Below are positions 8,986-48,411 of a stretch of DNA of 64,000 nucleotides, in pieces; positions within the stretch are counted from its first letter, which is position 1, and each line of letters starts with the position of its first letter. The DNA is taken from positions 1 to 64,000 of the forward strand of contig NZ_ARQK01000049.1 in NCBI RefSeq assembly GCF_000385215.1. The letters run 5' to 3'. Position numbers and translations under genes: made by a program. The notes under the pieces were generated by a model, which saw only the letters and a list, made by a program, of their open reading frames with translations, had not been told where the DNA came from and made no database searches. The stretch comes from Thioalkalivibrio thiocyanoxidans ARh2 (GTDB lineage: Bacteria > Pseudomonadota > Gammaproteobacteria > Ectothiorhodospirales > Ectothiorhodospiraceae).

Positions 8986-10056
8986 ATGACGCGACTGTTC
9001 GAGAAGACCTACCCCCAGCCCGGAACCGCCCCCGGGCACGGCGCACACAGCCCCGAACACCCCGCCGGAGAGGTCCGGCTTGAAGCCTGGCGCTACCACA
9101 ACGAACAGCTCGAACCGCTGGACCCGCAACAGGCCCTGGCCGAGGGCGAACCGGAATCAGGCTTCGTCTGGCTGCACCTGCAGGGCTGCCCCGGCCCGGA
9201 ACAACTGCACGCCCTTGGCGAGGCCTTCGGGCTGCACCCGCTGGCGCTGGAGGATGTGCGCCATCGCGGCCAGCGCCCCAAGCTCGACTACTTCGGCGAG
9301 CACGCGGTAATCATCCTCAACCAGCCGCAACTGGACGGCGATAGCGTGCGCCTGGACCAGTTCAACCTGTTCGTGAATCCGCGCTTCGTCATCAGCGTGC
9401 ACAGTGGCGAGACCGACCCGTTCGAGCCCATCCGCCAGCGCATGCGCGGCACCAACCGCAACTTCAACCGCCTGGGGGCCCCGTATCTGGCCTATGCCCT
9501 GATGGACGTGGTCGTGGATCAGGCCTTTCCGCTACTGGAGGAACTCGGCGACCGCATCGAAGCCCTGGAAGAACGAGTGCTCTCGCAGCCCGACCACGAC
9601 ACCCTCGGCCGCATCCATGTCGTGCGCCGCGAGCTGCTGGTGCTGCGCCGACAGCTCTGGCCCACGCGCGACGTGATCACCCGCCTGATGCGCGACGACC
9701 AGGACCCGTTCGGCCCCGAGATGATGCCCTGGCTGCGGGACGTCCACGACCACACTATCCAGATCATGGACCTGCTGGAGTCCTACCGCGACATGGCCTC
9801 CAGCCTGATCGAGGCCTACCTGTCGGCCGTCAACCAGCGCTCCAACGACGTGATCCGCGTGCTCACCATCATCGCCACCATCTTCATCCCGCTCACCTTC
9901 ATCGTCGGCATCTATGGCATGAACTTCGACCACCCGGAAAGCCCGTGGTCCATGCCCGAGCTCTACACCTATTACGGCTACCCCATCCTGCTCGGCATCA
10001 TGTTCGCCATCGTCCTCGGCATGCTCTACCTGTTCCGCCGCCGCCGCTGGCTCTAA
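8986..10056 (+). CDS. CorA-family magnesium/divalent metal transporter
   Basis: 356-residue CorA/ZntB-type channel. A large cytoplasmic N-terminal domain is followed by a long stalk helix and two C-terminal membrane helices. Between the helices sits the selectivity motif YGMNF, preceded by VGI in the usual IVGIYGMNF context, near residue 310. The very C-terminus is basic (FRRRRWL), as in CorA. The GMN motif indicates Mg2+ (possibly Co2+/Ni2+) transport. The start at ATG 8986 lies after AAAGAGAG. Divergent from the stress protein gene. Confidence 0.94.
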   Translation: MTRLFEKTYPQPGTAPGHGAHSPEHPAGEVRLEAWRYHNEQLEPLDPQQALAEGEPESGFVWLHLQGCPGPEQLHALGEAFGLHPLALEDVRHRGQRPKLDYFGEHAVIILNQPQLDGDSVRLDQFNLFVNPRFVISVHSGETDPFEPIRQRMRGTNRNFNRLGAPYLAYALMDVVVDQAFPLLEELGDRIEALEERVLSQPDHDTLGRIHVVRRELLVLRRQLWPTRDVITRLMRDDQDPFGPEMMPWLRDVHDHTIQIMDLLESYRDMASSLIEAYLSAVNQRSNDVIRVLTIIATIFIPLTFIVGIYGMNFDHPESPWSMPELYTYYGYPILLGIMFAIVLGMLYLFRRRRWL

Positions 10057-10070
10057 CCCCCAATCACCTG

Positions 10071-10138
10071 CAGGAGGCCAGCCCTCTGGCCCATCCGGCG
10101 CAGGCAGAATCCTATCGGCCAGAGGGCTGGCCTCCTAC
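10071..10138. repeat. Palindromic REP-like element, family B
   Basis: AGGAGGCCAGCCCTCTGGCC (from about 10072) pairs with GGCCAGAGGGCTGGCCTCCT (to about 10136). The spacer is about 28 bases. It begins 15 bases after the corA stop, between convergent corA and a PilZ gene, and may serve as a transcription stop for corA. Confidence 0.85.
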
Positions 10139-10290
10139 AACCCATATCCCGTCACCCAAATGGGGACAATGGCGGGGCCGGAACATGGTAAATCTCTGTC
10201 TTTAATTGCCTTTTTGCCTTTAGGATCGGACCTTGTCTATCGCGCCTGGTCGGCGCCGAAAACAAACGGCCAGGTGTGATCCCGTGGTGT

Positions 10291-10665
10291 CTAGGGTGTG
10301 CAGAGACTGTCATGCCGCGGACCACCCTGGACCGAGCGGAGGCCGATGCTCTCGCGCATCAGATCCAGCAGGCCATCGACCGCAAACGGATCTTCAGGCT
10401 CGAACATCGCTCCCACGCCATGCTCATCCAGTCGCATCACGATGCAATGCCAGACATGGGCCCGGCCATCCCCGGACTCCTCCGGGCTCACGGTCAGCCG
10501 CAGTCTCGTATTTTTCGAGACAACCGAATCCGTCAGTTCCAGATACAACCCGCTAAGGCTGACATCGCGGACCCGGCCGCTTGCTCTGCACTCAGAGTCG
10601 CCGGCCTTAGTCTCCACCTCGGCTTCCATACGTACGGCCCTGCGGCGCCCCTCTCGAAGATCCAT
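10291..10665 (-). CDS. PilZ domain protein (124 aa)
   Basis: Single PilZ domain, a c-di-GMP receptor fold. The arginine motif RRRAVR is at residues 7-12, and the second motif (D/N)xSxxG appears as DVSLSG near residue 34. The length is that of a one-domain adaptor. No membrane segment is seen. It probably relays c-di-GMP to motility or surface machinery, in line with pilS-pilR elsewhere in the window, but the target is unknown. A second PilZ protein is at 40974-41339. Confidence 0.88.
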   Translation of the reverse strand: MDLREGRRRAVRMEAEVETKAGDSECRASGRVRDVSLSGLYLELTDSVVSKNTRLRLTVSPEESGDGRAHVWHCIVMRLDEHGVGAMFEPEDPFAVDGLLDLMRESIGLRSVQGGPRHDSLCTP

Positions 10666-11084
10666 TATCTAACTCCCGTCTTGGCCCCATCGGGCACTGG
10701 ATTTTGATTTGGCGACCCCAGACTCTAATGCATGCGGATAGCTCGGTTAACGGTACCGGGCAGTCCGTGAGCCAAGGCTCAGGACGGGATCGCACCGTGA
10801 TAACCAATTGACGTGACGCGCTTTTATATTTCGAAGTGGCACTATCGTGGTACTCGAATGCGCGTTCGGGTCCAGAAATTCCCCTCGGGGTACCAGGCTC
10901 GGCATGCCCCCCACGAGTGGGAAAAAACACGCCCACCTTTCCATTGGCAGGCCACGTCTCCCATGCACTCCGCACCTGGCGCCAGCGGGTCGGTCCACGG
11001 GCCACACGGAACCTGGTTCACTTCAGGCCGGTCTCGTCCCTCCGCCCCGACAGACCCTTTCTAGGCCTGCCACGAGTAAACATA
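10666..11084. other. Gene-free intergenic stretch
   Basis: About 420 bases between the PilZ start and the repeat element at 11085, part of a 658-base divergent intergenic region. Composition is less GC-rich around 10820-10850 (TTTTATATTTCG), which may hold promoters. No frame here resembles a protein, and no clear terminator, RNA gene or operator was found. Confidence 0.5.
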
Positions 11085-11158
11085 CAAGCCTGCTTGCAGG
11101 CGAAGCCCCGGCCAAAGCCGGACACGGGCAGGAGCTTCGCGTGCAAGCACGCTCCTAC
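11085..11158. repeat. Palindromic REP-like element, family A
   Basis: CAAGCCTGCTTGCAGGCGAAGC pairs with GCTTCGCGTGCAAGCACGC. This copy is more diverged in the left arm than the one at 5910-5986 but shares the right-arm sequence almost exactly. It lies upstream of the nitroreductase gene. Confidence 0.8.
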
Positions 11159-11323
11159 AATTTGTGCCCCCTCATCCTCCCGACCGCAACGCCACGAAGA
11201 GCCAGGGCCTCCCCCACGCAGCCCCCCTACGCGAGAAAGCTCGAGAAAGAAGACACCCATGTTCTTCGGGCTCGGGCGACGGCACCCATCGCCCGTGCGC
11301 GGCAGGGACGGTATGTTGGCGAA

Positions 11324-12271
11324 ATGGAGATCGACCCCGTCATCCGCGAATGGCTGCACCTGGCCGGTCAGGCGCCCTCCTCGCATAACACCCAGCCCTG
11401 GCGGTTCCGCGTGGACCGCGCGGGGGTGGAGGTCTGGACGGACCCGGCGCGTTCGCTTCCGGTGAACGACCCGACCGGGCGCGAGCGCATCATCAGCTGC
11501 GGCTGTGCGGTGCTGAACCTGCGCGTGGCCGCCGCCACTGACGGCCACGGGCTGAACGTGCGCCCGGAGCAGGCGGGCGACGGCCCGTTCGTGCGGTTGC
11601 TGACCGGGCACCACGGCGGGGCGGGCCGGCGGGATCTGGCGCCACTGCGGGACTGGATCGGCGAGCGTCGTTCCTGGCGCGGCCGCTTTCTGGCTGACGA
11701 GGGCTCGCCGGACATCGTCGAGAAGCTGGTGCAAGCCGCCCACCATGAGGGAGCCTGGCTGCGCCCGGTCACGGACGCCGAGATCCGCAGGGAGATCGCT
11801 GACCTGATCCGGGCGGCGACGACGGCACAATGGAAGAACCCGGCCTGGCGCCGCGAACTGGCGCACTGGATGCGCCCGCCCTCCCGCGGGGACGGGCTGC
11901 CGGTCGGGCGTGTAACCGGCAGTCTGACCCGCTGGAGCGTCCGCCATCTGGTGTCCGCCCGGGCGATGGCCCGCGGCGAGGCGCATGTGGCCCGGGCAGC
12001 CCCGCTACTGCTGGCACTGGGCACGGGGATCGAAGGCCCGATGCAGTGGCTGACGGCCGGACAGGCCCTGCAGCGCGTACTGCTCGAGGCCACCCGGCAC
12101 GGGCTCTGCGCACGCTATCTGAATCAGCCGATCCAGCAGGCCGAATGCCACCCGAAACTGGCCGAGGTCCTCGGCGGAGGCCAGCCACAACTGCTGTTTG
12201 CGCTGGGCCGCCCGGACGGCACGCCCCGCCCCACACCGCGCCGCCCGCTGGACGAGCTGCTGAAGCACTGA
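11324..12271 (+). CDS. Acg-type nitroreductase family protein
   Basis: 315-residue flavoprotein-like enzyme of the nitroreductase superfamily, Acg (Rv2032)-like branch. The N-terminus has the typical APSSHNTQPWRF flavin-contact segment at about residues 15-26. There is an RRSWRGRF element near 115, and a C-terminal QPIQQAECHPKLAEVLGGGQPQLLFALGRP-type region (shown here only in part) closes the fold. Acg proteins are often large, with a lid, and some sequester FMN rather than reduce nitro compounds. The start at ATG 11324 is preferred since it puts the SSHNTQPW motif at the normal distance; the upstream open frame is non-coding repeat. Confidence 0.85.
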   Translation: MEIDPVIREWLHLAGQAPSSHNTQPWRFRVDRAGVEVWTDPARSLPVNDPTGRERIISCGCAVLNLRVAAATDGHGLNVRPEQAGDGPFVRLLTGHHGGAGRRDLAPLRDWIGERRSWRGRFLADEGSPDIVEKLVQAAHHEGAWLRPVTDAEIRREIADLIRAATTAQWKNPAWRRELAHWMRPPSRGDGLPVGRVTGSLTRWSVRHLVSARAMARGEAHVARAAPLLLALGTGIEGPMQWLTAGQALQRVLLEATRHGLCARYLNQPIQQAECHPKLAEVLGGGQPQLLFALGRPDGTPRPTPRRPLDELLKH

Positions 12272-12457
12272 GGCAAGCGGGAGCTTGGGGTCTGCCTGCG
12301 GACTTGGCAGGTCCGGGGATCCATCACCGCGGTACAGCGTCCGCCTTTTGGTATGGCTGTGCCTGCCCCCTGCGTCGGCGGCGGAGCGGGGTCTATGCTC
12401 GAGGGGACGTGGGTTCGGTGCGGATCCGCGCGATGCTGGCGAAAAGAGAGGGGCATT

Positions 12458-13654
12458 ATGGCGGGGCCGTATCGGATGCTGCATGGGGCCGGATTGGTGC
12501 TGGTACTGCTGGCAGTGGTATCGGCCGCAGGCTGTACCATCAGCCCGCCGATGGAGGGCCTGGATGACGAGCGCAACACGATCGCGGTGGCGCGCGAGGC
12601 GGGGCCGAGCGTGGTCTCGGTACGGGTGTCGAGAGCAGCAGAAGAGGACGACGCGGACGCCGACGAGATGACCGAGGTGATCGGGGGCAGTGGCTTCGTG
12701 GTGAACGACGCGGGCCAGATCATCACCAATTTCCACGTGATCGCGGCCACGTTAGGCGAGGCGACGGAAGACCGCATCGAGCTGGCCCAGGGGGCCTCGC
12801 TGACGGTGTCGTTCCTGGGGACACCGGAGGTGGAGCACGATGTGCGGGTGGTCGGTGCCAACCCGGACGTGGATCTGGCGCTGCTGGAGCTGGTGGACCC
12901 GGAGGCGGCGCCCGACCCCGGTCCGATCCCGCTGGGGGACTCCGACCGGTTGCAGGTCGGCCAGAAGGCGATCGCGATCGGCAATCCGTTCGGTCTGCAT
13001 TCGACGGTCACCGCCGGGATCGTGTCAGCGCTGGAGCGCGAGCGCCCGGGGCTGGTGGGGATCGAGATCCCCTACATCCAGACCGATGCGGCGATCAACC
13101 CCGGCAATTCCGGCGGGCCGCTGCTCGATTCCAGCGGCGAGGCGGTGGGGGTGAACAATGCCATCCTGGCGCCGGCCGGGACCTTCGCGGGCATCGGTCT
13201 GGCGGTGCCGAGCAACCTGGTCACCGAGGCGATGGCGGAGCTTCGCGCGGGCGGTTTTTCCGGCCTGGCGGCCGCGGCGGCGCAGCTGCCGGAACGCCCG
13301 CGCATGGGCATGGAGGTGGCGCTGCGGGTAGCGGACTACCCGCGCGGCCTGCGCGCGGAACTGGGGCTGCCGGAGCATGGCGTGGTGGTGACCGACGTCT
13401 CGCCCGACGGGCCGGCCGACCGCGCCGGCATCCGGCGGCCGGAGAACGTGGTGCTGGTAAACGGGCGCGCGTTCCCGGTGGATATCGACGTGATCACCCA
13501 TATCGACGGTCAGCGCGTGACGCGGCCGATCGACATCCAGCGCGTGATCCTGGGGCGCGAGGAGGGCGACGTGGTGACGCTGAAGGTGTGGCGCGACGGC
13601 ACCGAGCGCGAGGTGGAGATCGCGCTGGAGATCGTTAAGCCGGGCGAGGATTGA
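12458..13654 (+). CDS. HtrA/DegQ-like trypsin-type serine protease with PDZ domain, lipoprotein
   Basis: Envelope protease, 398 residues. The signal sequence ends in a lipobox (VSAAGC, Cys26), so the protein is probably lipid-anchored, unlike classic periplasmic DegP/DegQ. The chymotrypsin-fold triad is visible: His93 in NFHVIAA, Asp139 in VDLAL, Ser218 in GNSGGP. One PDZ domain occupies about residues 300-398, with IDGQRV. Having one PDZ makes it DegS-like in layout. The ATG at 12458 follows a GAGAGGGG ribosome-binding site. A DUF3634 gene lies downstream on the same strand. Confidence 0.93.
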   Translation: MAGPYRMLHGAGLVLVLLAVVSAAGCTISPPMEGLDDERNTIAVAREAGPSVVSVRVSRAAEEDDADADEMTEVIGGSGFVVNDAGQIITNFHVIAATLGEATEDRIELAQGASLTVSFLGTPEVEHDVRVVGANPDVDLALLELVDPEAAPDPGPIPLGDSDRLQVGQKAIAIGNPFGLHSTVTAGIVSALERERPGLVGIEIPYIQTDAAINPGNSGGPLLDSSGEAVGVNNAILAPAGTFAGIGLAVPSNLVTEAMAELRAGGFSGLAAAAAQLPERPRMGMEVALRVADYPRGLRAELGLPEHGVVVTDVSPDGPADRAGIRRPENVVLVNGRAFPVDIDVITHIDGQRVTRPIDIQRVILGREEGDVVTLKVWRDGTEREVEIALEIVKPGED

Positions 13655-47544: not shown

Positions 47545-48411
47545 ATGTCGCATCCCCGCTGGTTTGCCTGGCCCCGGCTCCTGCTGCTTTCGCTGGCGCT
47601 CGCCCTGGTGCTTGCCGTCAGTGACGCCCTCGCCCGCGAAGTCGATCCGGAGGCGCTGGAACGCGTGCTGCCAGTGGAACTGGCGACCGTCGGCATGGAC
47701 GCCCAGACCGGCGCCCCGATCGCCCTGCTGCGTGACCCCGACTCCGGCGACGTGGTACCGATCGTGATCGGCCCCGAGCAGGCGCAGTCCATCCTGCTGG
47801 CGATGCACGAGGTCCAGCTGTCGCGCCCGCAGACGCACGACCTGATGATCGACCTGCTGGAAGAGCTGGATGCGACCCTGGAACGCGTGATCGTTGACGG
47901 CCTGGTCGACGGCACCTACCTCGGCTGGCTGGAACTGCGTGTGGAGGGCGAGGACGAGCCGCGCTACGTCGACACCCGCCCCAGTGACGGCCTGGCCCTG
48001 GCCGTGCGCACCGGGGCCACGATTGCGGTGTCGCCCGACGTCCTCGAGGCCGACGTGCCGTTCGAATACAGCCCGCCCGGTGACGACGAGGTGGTGACCG
48101 CGCTCGGTATCACCGTGATCGCGGTGCGCGACGACCTGCGCGAGGCACTGGAACTGCCGGATGAACCCGGCGTGCTGGTCAGCCGCGCCCAGGGCGCGGC
48201 CGCAGCCGCCGGCCTGGCGCAGGGCGCGCTGATCCTGGAGGTGAACGGGCAAACACCCGAGACCCCGATCGAGTTCCTGGATGCGGTCTCCGAGACCCCG
48301 GATGGCGAAGAGGCGGAGATCCGCTTCTGGCTGGACGGCGAGGAACAGACCATCACCCTGCCCACCGACGTCCCGCAGATCGAGGAGGCGGACGACGCCC
48401 TGGCCGTGTAG
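47545..48411 (+). CDS. Exported bifunctional nuclease (BFN/DUF151) family protein with C-terminal PDZ domain
   Basis: 288 residues. Signal peptide (LLLLSLALALVLAV core, cleavage after ALA30), a BFN domain at about 42-172 (ALLRDPDSGDVVPIVIG, ILLAMHEVQLSRPQTHDLM, and RPSDGLALAVR), and a PDZ domain at about 183-275 (GVLVSRAQGAAA, GLAQGALILEVNG). BFN proteins are usually cytoplasmic or plastid nucleases; this export plus PDZ pairing is unusual. Its role may be periplasmic DNA handling or a protein-quality function. It converges on pgi. Confidence 0.85.
   Translation: MSHPRWFAWPRLLLLSLALALVLAVSDALAREVDPEALERVLPVELATVGMDAQTGAPIALLRDPDSGDVVPIVIGPEQAQSILLAMHEVQLSRPQTHDLMIDLLEELDATLERVIVDGLVDGTYLGWLELRVEGEDEPRYVDTRPSDGLALAVRTGATIAVSPDVLEADVPFEYSPPGDDEVVTALGITVIAVRDDLREALELPDEPGVLVSRAQGAAAAAGLAQGALILEVNGQTPETPIEFLDAVSETPDGEEAEIRFWLDGEEQTITLPTDVPQIEEADDALAV

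Follow-up and report, generated by a model that had tools for sequence, protein, structure and literature searches.

An established structural counterpart of the protein described here is TM0160 from Thermotoga maritima (PDB 1vjl, 1sj5), a 164-residue DUF151 chain for which PMC7249048, in the part that deals with it, proposes a putative triad of residues and terms the molecular function of the domain unknown. The same part of that source describes DNA degradation in vitro by the plant proteins BBD1 and BBD2, and it is from plant proteins that the 'nuclease' label of the BFN domain is inherited. Plant BBD and UVR-DUF151 proteins resemble the protein studied here in that a BFN domain is fused to a protein-interaction module; however, in the sections of PMC7249048, PMC8889267 and PMC8001636 that bear on them, the modules are UVR and HCR rather than PDZ, and the proteins are plastid, nuclear or cytoplasmic rather than resident in a bacterial envelope. 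For PDZ domains, the portion of PMC2891790 on ligand classes states that class II domains recognise a C-terminal hydrophobic-x-hydrophobic sequence, and reports that in X11alpha, a eukaryotic scaffold with tandem PDZ domains, the C-terminal tail binds and closes a PDZ of its own protein.

We analysed a window of 64,000 nucleotides from Thioalkalivibrio thiocyanoxidans ARh2, in which an open reading frame with an ATG start (288 aa plus stop) exactly fills positions 47545-48411 on the + strand. A preliminary description had read this frame as a signal peptide, a BFN domain and a PDZ domain in one chain, and profile searches, phmmer and fold matches all bear out that observation. The product, an exported BFN-PDZ protein with a ligand-like tail, is a variant of the already known BFN/DUF151 family; what is new here, and had not been noted in the preliminary description, is the hydrophobic-x-hydrophobic, PDZ-ligand-like C-terminus of these exported proteins.

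By our own hydrophobicity scoring and the -3/-1 rule, a Sec signal peptide is predicted at residues 1-30 (47545-47634, +). In line with the earlier claim of export, it has a positively charged start and a hydrophobic core, and ends in ALA before REVD, giving a cleavage site (ALA/RE) with small residues at -3 and -1. The mature protein (47635-48408, 258 residues) has a pI of 4.05 and contains neither lysine nor cysteine; cysteine is absent downstream of the predicted cleavage site in all 39 scored rows, the start codons of relatives having been picked so as to favour a signal-like N-terminus. In one BFN-PDZ relative (L109, genome G901) a lipobox-like LLAC replaces the ordinary signal. Judged from this motif, the relative may be a lipoprotein, and the motif also points to the envelope.

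The BFN/DUF151 domain, delimited by Pfam and structure comparison, spans residues about 41-170 (47665-48054, +). The Pfam profile BFN_dom (PF02577) matches residues 61-169 (102.2 bits, cut-off 27; E 1.9e-29), is matched at E 0.001 or better by 22 of 22 relatives of set A1, and finds a single gene in the window genome. Searches of the PDB with phmmer matched residues 47-169 to TM0160, and the BFN model superposes on that structure with a TM-score of 0.82-0.87, normalised by target length, and a VIA-align Z of 18.3 (rmsd 2.0 over 133 residues, 33% identity). The likeness to TM0160 lies in the BFN fold and in the three residues, T, H and D, proposed as its triad; the difference is that the TM0160 chain matches the BFN part only, with neither a PDZ region nor such a tail. 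In the phmmer alignment T97 and H98 (47833-47838, +) correspond to T57 and H58 of TM0160, and D148 of the RPSD motif (47986-47988, +) to D115, which together form the proposed active site as named in the part of PMC7249048 cited above. Loss of BFN active-site residues had been put forward beforehand as something that would refute the BFN-PDZ reading, and T97, H98 and D148 of the proposed site proved to be present; they are invariant in all 59 distinct relatives and in all 7 ordinary BFNs on our tree.

This invariance speaks for a periplasmic nuclease, whose BFN domain would cut DNA or RNA from outside and whose PDZ would merely anchor it to an envelope partner, as do the in vitro activity of BBD1 and BBD2 and a nucleoside transporter gene adjoining ordinary BFN genes in Bacteroides and Parabacteroides. 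The active site is putative, however, with mutational proof not found in the portions of the literature concerned with it; no nucleotide-uptake gene was recognised next to the window gene, and a mature protein with this pI and zero lysine seems ill suited to binding nucleic acids. That last argument is weakened because ordinary BFNs are likewise acidic. We regard this explanation, a nuclease anchored by its PDZ, as rather unlikely. A link to carbon-monoxide resistance (Rv1829), which has a single sentence of PMC7249048 as its basis, was set aside.

The HtrA-type PDZ domain (residues about 185-275; 48097-48369, +) was placed by a Pfam match just under cut-off, phmmer, structure comparison and AlphaFold2. 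PDZ_6 matches residues 213-262 (E 6.2e-6), and since its 26.3 bits fall 0.7 bits under the Pfam cut-off of 27, routine annotation could miss the domain; among 22 relatives, a PDZ_6 match at E 0.001 or better is present in 16. In the PDB, phmmer matched residues 187-274 to DegP-type PDZ domains. Structure prediction, which the preliminary description had thought might speak against a PDZ, supports one: over residues about 175-278 of the model, VIA-align gives a Z of 14.1 to DegQ (99 residues, rmsd 1.8) and of 14.8 to MamP. The resemblance to the first PDZ domain of HtrA/DegQ/DegP and to the PDZ of MamP extends over about 98 residues of fold (Z 13-15) and includes the envelope setting. Unlike HtrA/DegQ/DegP, however, the protein joins its PDZ to a BFN domain, and a Pfam scan of the protein found no trypsin-like protease domain, so it does not classify as an HtrA serine protease; the NCBIfam models for HtrA align to no more than residues about 184-275, with scores far under cut-off. 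The motif ALGITV (residues 186-191; 48100-48117, +) resembles a carboxylate-binding loop, a role suggested by the PDZ literature, and its G188 is kept in 57 of 59 rows, the exceptions being one S and one gap. In the window genome (G000) three further HtrA-type PDZ matches were counted, two of them with coordinates.

The Pfam PDZ score below cut-off might be taken to favour an artefact, in which a cytoplasmic BFN protein with a misread start had acquired a chance PDZ-like end. Conservation already refutes this, and we consider it extremely improbable: the architecture occurs in at least six families and in one clade, is under purifying selection, and its folds score Z 14-18. Across the genus, the median pN/pS over residues 31-288 is 0.33 (15 sequences, 105 non-independent pairs), and selection on the BFN-PDZ protein is purifying.

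A survey of BFN-PDZ architectures, proposed in the preliminary description, showed that within the genus 28 of 30 genomes have them (the two misses being 58% and 80% complete) and that they also occur in several other gammaproteobacterial families. Two near relatives, with 93% identity, are in Thioalkalivibrio ALJ21 and ALJ3, and the 28 positive genomes among the 47 of the window's family (and order) all belong to this one genus. In a class-wide sample a BFN gene was present in 11 of 369 genomes, nine with the exported BFN-PDZ form (in one, L041, the gene is cut by a contig end where the PDZ begins) and two with ordinary BFNs (L033, L034). A phylum-wide sample gave 3 of 398 genomes, all of the window's class; with a full-length profile and at most six candidates scored per genome, the same three were recovered, and the other matches listed were confined to the PDZ part or reached only slightly past it. 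The family of genome G485 has a BFN gene in 19 of 111 genomes (8 of 24 genera) and is taken to be Halomonadaceae because one member is identical to the Aidingimonas halophila protein (L032) over the last 230 residues. Other families have BFN genes in 3 of 3, 2 of 3 and 4 of 4 genomes, one order in 2 of 9, and an Alcanivorax bin also has the BFN-PDZ architecture. Plasmid records yielded six BFN matches, in all of which less than 80% of the query was covered; in two such records, from Bacteroides and Parabacteroides (L086, L090), an ordinary BFN gene adjoins a nucleoside transporter gene.

In a tree built from the BFN domains of 33 BFN-PDZ proteins and 7 ordinary BFNs, all BFN-PDZ proteins fall on one side of a branch with support 98/97. 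The ordinary BFN branches are long, and the joins among these rows and the exact root are therefore unsure; since G200, G310 and G405, all of one genus, are scattered on the tree rather than grouped, some transfer or mis-binning is likely. The 'so far undescribed role' claimed for the protein is a fair statement within the open-access full-text literature, because we found there no paper on DUF151 or a bifunctional nuclease with PDZ, or on a bifunctional nuclease with Thioalkalivibrio. The protein is nevertheless not a lone curiosity, but one of a conserved exported family of Gammaproteobacteria that, by their apparent lifestyle, are mostly salt-loving.

Following the PDZ is an acidic flexible linker (residues 276-284; 48370-48396, +; pLDDT <50 from residue 278) and then the C-terminal ALAV (48397-48408, +), which, by tail alignment and the class definition in the cited portion of PMC2891790, is class II PDZ-ligand-like (hydrophobic-x-hydrophobic-COOH). 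The linker varies between relatives and is rich in Pro, Asp, Glu and Arg, with 11% hydrophobic residues (V, L, I, M, F). At the tail, by contrast with this composition, such residues are found in 58 distinct proteins at position 0 in 48 and at -2 in 43 (at both in 37), with 1 at -1, 3 at -3 and 0 at -4. Counting each distinct last-four-residue tail once, 21 of 28 have a hydrophobic last residue (in a binomial test, p 4e-15 relative to linker composition and 1e-6 relative to 30%); the tail counts and p values are uncorrected for relatedness among the proteins. As a rough control, 69 neighbouring ORFs, some in wrong frames, gave a hydrophobic residue at position 0 in 12, at -2 in 9 and at both in 1.

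The 21 proteins without the full pattern fall into three groups. Eleven have a hydrophobic last residue without one at -2 (L038, L039, L040, L101-L104, L108-L111), six are hydrophobic at -2 with A or T as the last residue (L002, L003, L085, L092, L095, L099), and four have neither (L035, L036, L105, L028). Among the last, L035 and L036 are the two rows of the deepest branch, with the PDZ present and the tail motif absent, and in L028 (G035) the reading frame continues ~20 residues beyond GLRV, where close relatives stop, through either stop loss or an assembly error. Read at the level of sequence, then, the protein seems both to recognise C-termini and to carry a PDZ-ligand-like one of its own. 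Neither AlphaFold2 model shows docking of the tail in cis: it is undocked in the full-length model (5 sequences, mean pLDDT 75.5; residues 278-288 with pLDDT <50) and in a PDZ-plus-tail model (5 sequences; residues 107-117 with pLDDT <50).

One draft genome (L107, G795; 1264-1884) encodes a signal and a BFN domain followed almost directly by EEPTPGIRL and a stop, and its genus-mate L106 (G817) encodes the full protein, ending in PGIRM. Relative to L106, L107 has therefore had linker and PDZ deleted in frame and the tail retained, and because it keeps the tail without the PDZ, the PDZ that reads the tail may belong to another protein. The tail could then serve as a docking site or degron that is recognised by a different PDZ protein of the envelope, such as HtrA or a tail-specific protease, and set turnover, with the protein's own PDZ serving something else. 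Tail-specific proteases read nonpolar C-termini, and the other HtrA-type PDZ genes of the window genome would offer candidate readers; but a degron has no need of a PDZ in the same chain, and L107 is a single draft genome. We judge this explanation to be on the unlikely side.

The scheme we put forward, with slightly less than even confidence, is that of a protein exported by Sec to the envelope of mostly halophilic or haloalkaliphilic Gammaproteobacteria, in which the tail sits in a PDZ groove until displaced. The BFN part would probably dimerise in the manner of TM0160, the proposed Thr/His/Asp pocket lying between the subunits, and the HtrA-type PDZ would bind exposed hydrophobic C-termini of other envelope proteins. 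On its flexible linker, the tail would occupy a PDZ groove, on an adjacent copy of the protein and not on the same chain, and better C-termini, for example those of unfolded outer-membrane or periplasmic proteins, would displace it, whereby the BFN part would be brought to, or switched by, such clients. Evidence against this scheme comes from the undocked tail in both five-sequence AlphaFold2 models, the PDZ-less L107, the two deepest rows with their PDZ but no tail motif, the eleven proteins hydrophobic at the last residue only, and the lack of a conserved neighbour gene. X11alpha, with its tail reported to bind in the portion of PMC2891790 cited above, provides a precedent, although it is a eukaryotic scaffold and the BFN-PDZ tail is ligand-like by sequence. 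A more specific version, in which the tail fills the partner subunit's groove as a self-cap, unfolded clients displace it and the BFN pocket is thereby turned on, appears doubtful; if true, it would represent a PDZ sensor with an enzyme-like, non-protease output. BFN-PDZ proteins could bring into envelope PDZ sensing a member that is not a protease, and an exported BFN whose PDZ and tail hint at its partners offers a short, testable route to the function of the widespread BFN/DUF151 domain.

Clients might instead be engaged by a non-catalytic binding protein or chaperone-like adaptor, the BFN dimer acting as a scaffold that presents the PDZ to misfolded envelope proteins. The relevant part of PMC8889267 describes enrichment of plant UVR-DUF151 proteins in a ClpC1 trap, which ties another DUF151 fusion to proteostasis, and PMC3579733, in the section concerned, lists an archaeal DUF151 protein as a CheA interactor; the strict invariance of T, H and D nonetheless suggests more than a scaffold, and we find the adaptor somewhat improbable.

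Gene neighbourhoods, taken from our own ORF picks, were rejected as a functional guide because no partner is common to the lineages. The window gene is flanked by LptF/G, PepA, HolC, an unassigned minus-strand ORF that by eye resembles a methyltransferase, and PGI; elsewhere the neighbours are FabH and T2SSF (L075), an AraC-type gene and TIR-nSTAND1 (L079), Rhomboid and an N-acetyltransferase (L032), a CitMHS transporter (L031) and a short-chain dehydrogenase (L080), and these six loci share no neighbour pointing to a pathway. Within the class sample, ectoine synthase (PF06339), absent from the window's own genome, passed its cut-off in 5 of the 9 genomes with BFN-PDZ and in 47 of the 360 others (Fisher p 0.004 by genome and 0.03 by genus, uncorrected for kinship), a link to salt lifestyle that is suggestive only. 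Just downstream of the BFN-PDZ gene in L079 (genome G775) lies the TIR-nSTAND1 gene (9079-13506), which also encodes WD40 and is possibly of a defence type.
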